NCBI GenBank assembly: GCA_017305535.1
Contig: JAFKKN010000005.1
Coordinates: 310,001 to 374,000, forward strand
Source: Hyphomicrobiales bacterium
GTDB lineage: Bacteria; Pseudomonadota; Alphaproteobacteria; Rhizobiales; Xanthobacteraceae
Length of the DNA: 64,000 nucleotides
Reading direction: 5' to 3'
A program made the translations under genes and the position numbers. The notes beneath the pieces are model-generated. The model made no database searches. It saw only the letters and a list, made by a program, of their open reading frames with translations, and was not told where the DNA came from. Positions 29,796 through 30,799 of the stretch are shown here, one piece after another. The first letter of the stretch is position 1, and each line of letters begins with the position of its first letter.

Positions 29796-30122
29796 ATGAC
29801 GACGCTTCCCGCTTACATTGGAGCCGCGCTGGCTGAGATTGCCGGTTGCTTCGCGTTCTGGGCGTGGCTGCGGCTCGACAAGTCGGCGTGGTGGCTGGCG
29901 CCGGGCATCGCCTCGCTGATGTTGTTCGCGTATCTGCTGACGCTGGTTGATTCGCCGGCGGCCGGTCGCGCCTACGCGGCCTATGGCGGCATCTACATCG
30001 TCGCGTCGCTGGGTTGGCTATGGATGGTGGAAGGCGTGCGGCCAGATCGTTGGGATATCAGCGGCGCGGCGCTTTGTCTCGCGGGTGCCGTCCTGATTCT
30101 CGCGGGGCCGCGGCCAGCCTGA
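29796..30122 (+). CDS. YnfA family membrane protein
   Basis: A 108-residue protein with four hydrophobic helices, the YnfA (UPF0060) layout. Signatures: [20 protein letters not shown], the [22 protein letters not shown] helix and [21 protein letters not shown]. YnfA is related to small multidrug-resistance transporters but its own substrate is unsettled. It starts 13 bases after the DUF1223 stop, so the two are co-transcribed. Confidence 0.93.
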
Positions 30123-30143
30123 AATCGAGAAAAACAGAACCTC

Positions 30144-30173
30144 AAAAGAAAAAGGACCAACTTTCGTTGGCCC
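30144..30173 (-). terminator. Intrinsic terminator of candidate sRNA
   Basis: On the minus strand GGCCAAC, a GAAA tetraloop and GTTGG-T-CC form a hairpin, followed directly by TTTTTCTTTT. No T-run follows on the plus strand, so it acts on minus-strand transcripts only. Confidence 0.8.
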
Positions 30174-30274
30174 GGAGTGGGGGGATTAACCTCCCTGCGT
30201 ACTGGCCCGGTCCCGACGACCCCGGGGGGCTGGGGGCTGAGGAAACCGGGACCGAAAGAACCGGGCCGACGCAG
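30145..30274 (-). ncRNA. Candidate structured small RNA
   Basis: On the minus strand, about 130 bases fold into a long arm: CTGCGT/ACGCAG at the ends (30269-30274 with 30195-30200), GGCCCGG/CCGGGCC inside (30261-30267 with 30204-30210), and GGGACC/GGTCCC deeper. A C-rich apical region (runs of C at about 30221-30236) is left unpaired. A final GGCCAAC-GAAA-GTTGG hairpin is followed by TTTTTCTTTT, a textbook intrinsic terminator. Upstream is TTGGAC, 17 bases, CAACAC. It lies antisense between ynfA and the DUF2794 gene. I cannot assign it to a known family from memory. Confidence 0.62.
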
Positions 30275-30279
30275 TGATG

Positions 30280-30308
30280 GTGTTGTCGCAAGTCAGCGCG
30301 GCGTCCAA
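30280..30308 (-). promoter_or_regulatory. Possible promoter of candidate sRNA
   Basis: On the minus strand TTGGAC (30308-30303) and CAACAC (30285-30280) are separated by 17 bases and would start transcription near 30274, where the sRNA's outer stem begins. The -10 match is weak, as is common in this lineage, so this is a supporting clue only. Confidence 0.35.
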
Positions 30309-30433
30309 TGGGCGGAAGTTAGGCGGTATTATGATTTGCTTAACGTTCCTGTGAGTCGCGGAGCTCAAGCACTGAACCCTTGCGGTGGAGACGAGTCAGG
30401 GCGATCATGTCAATGACATGACAGGAGGCGCCG

Positions 30434-30799
30434 ATGAGTTTGACGTCGGGGGAGTCCGGCCCGGAGGACAGCCGCGGATCGGAGCGCATGGCGGCAACGC
30501 CGCCAAGCAACGTCACGTTCAATCGTCTTGAACTCAATCGAATCCTGAATCTCTACGGGCGCATGGTCGCCGACGGCGAGTGGCGCGACTACGCCATCGA
30601 CTTCCTGAAAGACAAAGCGGTGTTCTCGATCTTCCGCCGCGCTTCCGAAGTGCCGATCTATCGTATCGAGAAGGACCCACGCCTTGCGCGCAAGCAAGGT
30701 GCCTACAGTGTCGTCTCGGCGGGCGGCCTGATCCTGCGCCGTGGCCACGATCTCGACCGCGTGCTGCTGGCGATCGATCGCAAGCTGGCGCTGGTGTAG
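30434..30799 (+). CDS. DUF2794 family protein
   Basis: A 121-residue protein of the alphaproteobacterial DUF2794 family. The family core runs from VTFNRLELNRILNLYGRMVADGEWRDYAIDFL through AVFSIFRRASEVPIYRIEKDPRLARKQGAYSVV and ends GHDLDRVLLAIDRKL. It is soluble and its function is unknown. The first 20 or so residues (SGESGPEDSRGSERMAAT) are probably disordered; the internal Met at residue 19 is an alternative start. It has a 311-base upstream gap holding the sRNA candidate. Confidence 0.87.
   Translation: MSLTSGESGPEDSRGSERMAATPPSNVTFNRLELNRILNLYGRMVADGEWRDYAIDFLKDKAVFSIFRRASEVPIYRIEKDPRLARKQGAYSVVSAGGLILRRGHDLDRVLLAIDRKLALV

Follow-up and report, generated by a model that had tools for sequence, protein, structure and literature searches.

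A BjrC174-family small RNA with a covarying hairpin and a nearly constant C-rich loop, commonly encoded beside DUF2794 in alphaproteobacteria and possibly controlled by ChvI

The window analyzed here is a stretch of 64,000 nucleotides from a Hyphomicrobiales bacterium of the Xanthobacteraceae (GenBank assembly GCA_017305535.1, contig JAFKKN010000005.1, positions 310,001 to 374,000), and coordinates refer to the window unless stated otherwise. The genes acnA, DUF1223, ynfA, DUF2794 and a GNAT gene flank the locus of interest, a gap of 311 bases (30123-30433) between the stop of ynfA (30122) and the ATG of the DUF2794 gene (30434), as measured in the initial annotation. On its minus strand the gap is a full-length match to the Rfam family RF02355 (BjrC174), running from 30355 to 30150 and covering model positions 1 to 201 of 201 (cmscan, 157.5 bits, E-value 1.4e-30, against a gathering score of 45 bits). 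The gap almost certainly holds an sRNA gene of the BjrC174 family. The element in the window is thus an already named RNA, and at the level of the family this copy does not differ from BjrC174. R1, a covariance model that we built from 38 sequences, matches at 30203-30334 (124.8 bits), and the full RF02355 span (30150-30355) probably includes the promoter. The features of the locus are as follows.

29796-30122, plus strand: ynfA (PF02694), beside the sRNA only in the window copy and two relatives of the same genus (L006-L008)
30144-30275, minus strand: putative sRNA transcript of ~130 nt, BjrC174 homologue, with an inferred 5′ end and the U tract as 3′ end (RF02355, R1, −10-like block, CC3664 start)
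30144-30153, minus strand: terminator U tract TTTTTCTTTT (terminator scan; homologues)
30154-30173, minus strand: intrinsic terminator hairpin of 8 bp with a GAAA loop (terminator scan; homologues)
30195-30200, minus strand: 3′ side of the basal helix, ACGCAG (minimum free-energy [MFE] fold)
30204-30213, minus strand: 3′ arm of the outer conserved helix, GGACCGGGCC (covariation)
30217-30225, minus strand: 3′ arm of the inner helix, CCGGGGTCG (MFE fold; helices 2 and 3 of the covariation analysis)
30226-30245, minus strand: C-rich apical loop UUUCCUCAGCCCCCAGCCCC, proposed mRNA-pairing seed (loop conservation; homologue folding)
30246-30254, minus strand: 5′ arm of the inner helix, CGGTCCCGG, pairing with CCGGGGTCG (MFE fold; helices 2 and 3 of the covariation analysis)
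30258-30267, minus strand: 5′ arm of the outer conserved helix, GGCCCGGTTC, pairing with GGACCGGGCC (covariation)
30269-30274, minus strand: 5′ side of the basal helix, CTGCGT (MFE fold)
30280-30287, minus strand: −10-like block GACAACAC; consensus gAnaa in near homologues, cATATT in far ones and GATAGT at two CC3664 loci (logo)
30303-30308, minus strand: −35-like TTGGAC, weakly conserved (logo)
30300-30324, minus strand: GCC-N8-GCC-N8-GCC array with a period of 11 bp, proposed ChvI-type site (homologue counts; quoted ChvI consensus)
30328-30334, minus strand: TCATAAT box immediately preceding the GCC array, with tCacaat as class consensus (logo of 97 homologues)
30342-30354, minus strand: upstream block TCACAGGAACGTT, a possible extra regulator site, conserved in 32 near homologues and not in 65 far ones (logo)
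30434-30799, plus strand: DUF2794 gene (PF10984), head-to-head neighbor outside the RNA (Pfam, 1.8e-40; linkage counts)

The initial annotation had proposed a structured sRNA on the minus strand, equipped with a terminator of its own, and had named a cmscan run against Rfam as a check. Both the RNA and its terminator are borne out by the RF02355 match, by covariation and by terminators in homologues, but membership in an Rfam family had been missed. Its view that nothing protein-coding explains the gap also stands, since homologues carry indels in the loop and stems that are incompatible with a reading frame. Madhugiri et al. reportedly verified BjrC174 itself in Bradyrhizobium japonicum in 2012, using gel-blot, microarray and sequencing evidence, and are said to have seen more of it in nodules; the window RNA has the same structure, loop and terminator. 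Elsewhere in the window lie an ffh sRNA (RF01793; 14767-14818, minus strand, 56.8 bits) and two tRNA genes (RF00005; 860-932 and 60452-60538, both on the plus strand).

We are highly confident that the hairpin with its exposed loop is real. None of 200 dinucleotide shuffles folded as stably as the native sequence (z of −3.04 for 30308-30145 and −2.88 for 30322-30145). Among the nested arms described initially, CTGCGT/ACGCAG and GGCCCGG/CCGGGCC hold, whereas GGTCCC/GGGACC, despite being complementary, is used neither in the MFE fold nor in the conserved structure; the unpaired C-rich apical part is recovered in the MFE fold of the minus strand. In an alignment of 38 sequences (A2), 95.9% of cells are paired and double changes occur in 12 of 16 pairs, the outer helix (helix 1) alone reaching 99.7% with double changes in 7 of its 9 pairs. 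No shuffle out of 500 scored as high, and slid structures were only 18 to 67% paired. A2 omitted near-duplicate, hard-to-align or incomplete loci (L006, L015, L025, L027, L034, L041, L049, L050, L055, L057, L058 and L061), and L059 stayed outside because it does not carry the exact motif used for cutting. The larger alignment A3, in which 98 distinct sequences were fitted to the model, is 94.3% paired with double changes in all 16 pairs; 1 of 500 shuffles equaled the double-change count and none the other measures. A comparison of arms that requires no model gave the same picture in 57 homologues outside A2, whose own arms pair with a mean of −37.7 kcal/mol versus −22.5 when swapped and −19.8 when shuffled. 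A homologue's own arms were better than those of other members in 56 of the 57 cases, at a 5′ arm identity of only 0.29. Compensatory changes among relatives, by which the initial annotation had wished its arms to be judged, are therefore abundant.

While the stems covary, the loop is nearly constant in the homologue alignments, with the form CAGCCCCC(C)AGCCCC. UCCUCAGCCCCCAGCCCCCC is present in 16 of 16 aligned close homologues, and CAGCCCCCCAGCCCC is the class-wide form, with small variations. In the window the loop has a mean unpaired probability of 0.85; when 97 homologues were folded one at a time, 87 placed it at the apex and left it mostly unpaired. This set, which also served for the logo and the GCC array, consists of 97 of 99 R1 matches after the two weakest had been dropped (96 were used for counting terminators), and the 99 came from the window plus 95 loci, including only part of the 80 loci of the pattern scan described below. 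As first described, the final hairpin is capped by GAAA; it has 8 bp (30173-30154) and is followed by TTTTTCTTTT at 30153-30144. The terminator scan at the window is by itself within chance (1 found versus 0.6 expected). Downstream of the core, 36 of 42 RF02355-found homologues carry a terminator-like hairpin, against 1.7 expected in shuffled sequence, as do 25 of 54 further homologues, against 1.6.

How widely does this RNA occur? RF02355 was detected at an E-value of 0.001 or below in 43 of 61 relatives, 34 of them over threshold, and eight of the nine below it belong to other families of the order. Within the order, R1 matches 180 of 249 genomes, spread over 89 of 112 genera, and within the class 37 of 385 genomes, in scans with strict filters by which weak matches are lost. 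In a sample of the phylum, for which the number of genomes from outside the class is not given, it matches 34 of 299 genomes, and all 34 belong to the class, which argues against chance matches. A DNA pattern scan of named genomes yielded at least 80 loci, and R1 confirms 79 of the 80 listed; because the pattern required TTGCC-N8-GCC, the scan is no census and cannot serve as a test of that motif. Parvibaculum, Roseibium, Bosea, Microvirga, Ancylobacter, Methyloligella, Stappia and Algimonas are among the genera of the pattern matches listed, which also include Hyphomonadaceae. None of 20 distant R1 loci had an Rfam match over threshold; with E-values of up to 1 admitted, RF02355 turned up at 10 of 14 distant loci and at 1 of another 12. 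Two further hits that overlap the sRNA, SorY at L030 (25.2 bits against a threshold of 111) and FsrA at L155, were taken as chance, and a search of plasmids and phages gave no match. Judged from these models and patterns, the BjrC174 RNA is far more widespread than Rfam's naming after the Bradyrhizobiaceae implies and extends through much of the alphaproteobacteria.

Some genomes hold more than one copy. In one lineage (G227, G099 and G324) the sRNA is multicopy (L236 and L239; L237 and L238), and two of its members, G227 and G099, have a tandem pair next to DUF2794 and additional, unlinked copies elsewhere. A second, weaker copy lies near the locus L042. One metagenome-assembled genome (MAG) labeled Planctomycetota has the sRNA together with a DUF2794 gene (L145, 69% identical), which probably is alphaproteobacterial DNA that was binned wrongly, and the pattern match in a Phycisphaerales MAG (L183), which R1 does not match, is probably due to chance.

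Upstream of the hairpin, the logo of the 97 homologues reads CACAAT-n-TTGCC-N8-GCC-N8-GCC, strongest in the far set, followed by the −10-like block. In far homologues GTTG comes after this block, and the RNA probably begins at the corresponding position. The promoter-like pair TTGGAC-17-CAACAC of the initial annotation is present and sits at the −10-like block of the family, but its TTGGAC is not conserved and would be weak alone; the 5′ end predicted there (30274) agrees with the mapped start of the CC3664 model at 30274-30275 (see below). We infer from the sequence the ~130-nt transcript, its start site and its transcription in the window organism. In B. japonicum, BjrC174 counts as an abundant sRNA whose start site has been validated; no RpoD or RpoN motif was mapped at this site, and of all tested sites for which no promoter had been mapped it gave the strongest promoter activity (PMC4842269). 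Strong activity without such a motif, as far as that source describes it, is expected of an activator-dependent promoter.

The candidate activator site is the GCC array. Taken one by one, its three slots hold GCC in 29, 23 and 26 of the 32 near homologues and in 26, 19 and 25 of the 27 class homologues. All three are present in 17 of the 32 near homologues versus 2 of 13,808 control registers, and in 17 of the 27 class homologues versus 3 of 11,759, with one base of play allowed in the family and none in the control registers. Both RF02355 and R1 span the GCC positions, and most of these counts are not independent of how the loci were selected. Among 8 loci that were found by DUF2794 and the loop only, 7 have at least two GCCs in register and 3 have all three; the chance of at least two is ~0.07 per locus, and two pairs among the 8 are near-duplicates. 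The array is not specific genome-wide, as TTGCC-N8-GCC-N8-GCC occurs 9 times in the organism's own genome versus 7 times for the backwards control.

A second Rfam family, the Caulobacter sRNA CC3664 (RF01530), bears on the start site. Its consensus has the same long hairpin as the window RNA, with the loop CUGAACAGccccccCaGcccCC. Among the 385 class genomes searched, RF01530 exceeds its threshold in only one, G416; it also does so in Caulobacter vibrioides, which served as control, and matches weakly at two R1 loci, L179 (32.9 bits) and L059 (28.3 bits). G416 has two RF01530 loci (L293, 1501-1637, minus strand; L294, 1501-1585, plus strand), one of which is a place that R1 had already found independently, and R1 matches both in the same register (40.4 and 30.4 bits; E-values of 1.1e-7 and 1e-5 in 6 kb). 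The CC3664 model starts 59, 59 and 60 positions after R1 position 1 at L293, L294 and L179, respectively, which corresponds to 30275-30274 in the window; hence, the mapped CC3664 start lies downstream of the GCC array, where the −10-like block predicts a start. Unlike the window copy, the G416 loci have no DUF2794 gene within ~1.5 kb, and their GCC array is weaker, with one GCC in register at L293, the over-threshold locus, and two of three at L294. The window itself stays below the RF01530 gathering score of 60 bits, and RF01530 has no match in its genome (G000). From few sequences, namely one genome and two weak loci, a common origin of RF02355 and RF01530 as branches of one RNA appears probable.

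ChvG-ChvI is an envelope and acid-stress system, and the genome carries its own ChvI-ChvG-HprK operon, comprising an OmpR-type response regulator (Response_reg and Trans_reg_C domains), a ChvG-like kinase and HprK. The kinase contains Stimulus_sens_1, and its best NCBIfam match is ChvG with 477 bits, below the model cut-off of 740 bits. The array in the window (30324-30300) agrees with the consensus N-GCC-N8-GCC of Sinorhizobium meliloti ChvI as quoted from Ratib et al. 2018 (PMC9731502). The same source gives a different ChvI motif for Caulobacter, TTGC-N3-GCAA, and reports a ChvI ChIP-seq peak at CCNA_R0088, which we do not count as evidence on CC3664. With the consensus and the host operon as grounds, we consider control of sRNA transcription by ChvI an evenly balanced proposition. 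One sRNA copy that is not linked to DUF2794 (L090) adjoins a lipid A acyltransferase gene (PF03279; 1762-2742, minus strand), an envelope context that would suit ChvI control.

The same sRNA could also be governed differently: another OmpR-family regulator might bind the array, or the RNA might be ~180 nt long, start just after TCATAAT and include the array. A longer RNA would fit the reach of the RF02355 model to 30355, it folds with a closing helix CUAACUUCC/GGGAGGUUAA, and our scan found a single sigma-70-like site, CTCACA and CATAAT separated by 16 nt, in which CATAAT makes a fair −10. Yet beyond the near homologues the TCATAAT box changes to TCACAAT, the near and far sets share an aligned A in the −10-like block closer to the hairpin, and the CC3664 model starts downstream of the array. 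Regarding the regulator, repeats of 11 bp are used by further response regulators of the OmpR family, such as CenR (TGA-N8-TGA), and the CC3664 locus L293 has a degenerate array; against this, GCC-N8-GCC is exactly the consensus quoted for S. meliloti ChvI. We regard this pair of alternatives as unlikely, though worth keeping in mind, and the mapped CC3664 start lowers its odds slightly.

The initial annotation placed the RNA between ynfA and DUF2794. DUF2794 is indeed the usual neighbor, but ynfA lies in the flanks (~1.5 kb) of only 3 of 43 loci, the window included (at L015 the contig is too short for a judgment), and it appears to have been gained recently between DUF1223 and the sRNA. A head-to-head DUF2794 gene accompanies 40 of 43 RF02355-found loci (at 74 to 405 bp), 69 of the 80 DNA-pattern loci listed (58 to 500 bp; the scan had no protein criterion) and 21 of 30 R1-found loci (57 bp to 1.35 kb); these three sets overlap, and some of the misses are contig ends. 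Of the remaining RF02355-found loci, two have no DUF2794 neighbor and one (L023) has the gene downstream on the same strand, unlike the other linked loci, so that the sRNA seems to be inverted there. Might the RNA then act on or with this neighbor, either by controlling the head-to-head gene or by being bound by the DUF2794 protein? The linkage would favor it, but 9 of the 30 class loci are not beside DUF2794, and five genomes (G183, G186, G229, G284 and G287) have the sRNA elsewhere and a DUF2794 locus that R1 does not match. Extra unlinked copies also speak against it, as do the different distributions of DUF2794 (129 of 240 class genomes) and R1 (37 of 385, with filters that lose weak matches), and by eye no evident loop complement is found in the DUF2794 leader. 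The structure of the DUF2794 protein offers no help to this idea either. The predicted model (helix, five strands, helix; pLDDT of 83.5) has no Foldseek match at an E-value of 0.001 or below, a sequence search found no close solved structure, and VIA-align 2 gave Z scores of up to 7.2 with unlike proteins and of ~5 to 6 with frataxins, from which we draw no function. We consider an action on or with the neighbor improbable.

Two observations on these neighbors may be added. The Brucella DUF2794 gene BAB1_0087 is tabulated among MucR-affected genes (PMC10746212). Around six copies that are not linked to DUF2794 (L090, L091, L095, L096, L098 and L104; 10 proteins), DUF2189 is found beside L095 and L098, which are of one lineage, and an ABC-transporter ATPase beside L090 and L104; the neighbors of the six have nothing else in common.

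What might the RNA do in the cell? We hypothesize that transcription of the minus strand, pointing away from DUF2794, yields an RNA of ~130 nt and stops at the terminator that this RNA carries. The compensatory stem of the RNA would keep the nearly fixed loop (UUUCCUCAGCCCCCAGCCCC in the window) exposed for G-rich mRNA sites, for example, Shine-Dalgarno sequences, and the usual outcome would be that translation is blocked. Transcription would be driven by an OmpR-family response regulator bound to the GCC array beside the weak −35, with ChvI as the best candidate. For the reading as a whole, a trans-acting sRNA of the BjrC174 family that is probably activated by ChvI and pairs with G-rich mRNA sites through its loop, we estimate a probability of roughly 0.55. 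By analogy with the C-rich loop of GsrN, a role of the loop as the pairing seed for G-rich mRNA appears fairly likely, and the initial suggestion that such a loop can pair with G-rich sites was right as a possibility. Repression at ribosome sites as the usual outcome is a more tentative proposal, which we slightly doubt.

GsrN of Caulobacter has an exposed C-rich loop with six tandem C residues that is predicted to meet G-rich sites, and pairing has been proven on the G-tract of the katG mRNA leader (PMC5869019). It depends on sigma-T, and its homologues typically lie near the general-stress locus, C. crescentus gsrN itself being an exception (PMC5869019). The window RNA resembles GsrN in its exposed C-rich loop and differs in its location, as its neighbors are acnA, DUF1223, ynfA, DUF2794 and GNAT and not ecfG, nepR or phyR. 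EcfG-type promoters follow the consensus GGAAC-N16/17-cGTT; a GsrN-like promoter was rejected for the window RNA, because a loose pattern of this consensus is absent from the minus strand of 30270-30433 (the 164 nt 5′ of the hairpin). A precedent for an sRNA that depends on ChvI is ChvR, reportedly confined to C. crescentus; its gene is located upstream of recF/gyrB, and two stem-loops mediate its pairing with chvT (PMC6237742). The window RNA would share the dependence on ChvI, and the pairing elements of ChvR, two other stem-loops, are different.

In the organism's own genome, 10-mer complements occur at 7 sites for the 5′ half of the loop and at 9 for its middle (each count including the sRNA locus), versus 1 and 9 for the backwards controls. 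One of them lies at the ribosome site, GGGCTGAGGAGG, of a gene for a 54-amino-acid glycine-rich membrane protein (L248, 1330-1491, minus strand, contig C1). The predicted pairing has −26.0 kcal/mol, against a background of 49 genes with a mean of −12.6 and a standard deviation of 4.5. The complement is kept in several genera, though not in all relatives, and in G030, which has no RF02355 match, the energy is −23.9 kcal/mol. Due to this incomplete conservation and the similar energy in G030, we do not claim the gene as a target and list it as a weak candidate.

The RNA could instead sequester a protein, in the manner of 6S RNA or a CsrA-type sponge, and the long hairpin and nearly fixed single-stranded loop could form a protein site, but this is the least probable of the alternatives, as the C-rich loop has no repeated GGA motifs and the 6S-like identity offered initially had to be dropped: the long hairpin is shared with 6S RNA (RF00013), which has no over-threshold match in the window and is encoded on another contig of the genome (G000:C3).

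In the open-license full texts we found no account of the function or targets of BjrC174 or of a link to ChvI or DUF2794, which does not prove absence from print. Likewise, the wide spread, the linkage to DUF2794, the covarying stems with an almost fixed loop and the GCC array are described in none of the sources consulted. With them, an orphan sRNA of Bradyrhizobium gains wide conservation, a usual partner gene, a probable second Rfam branch (CC3664) and a promoter motif that points toward a two-component system. A rebuilt RF02355 model could annotate the RNA where Rfam misses it outside near relatives. The findings open to test whether ChvG-ChvI acts through an RNA, which targets BjrC174 has and why DUF2794, a widespread domain with no assigned function, travels with the sRNA.

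More speculatively, and on balance doubtfully, the RNA might be the alphaproteobacterial counterpart of the enterobacterial envelope-stress sRNAs: an ancient, ChvI-activated RNA, comprising the BjrC174 and CC3664 branches, that many families would have inherited together with DUF2794 and some would have duplicated. Its loop would silence mRNAs with G-rich leaders, probably of envelope genes. If this were true, the ChvI regulon would be joined to a general riboregulator, and DUF2794 would gain its first functional context.
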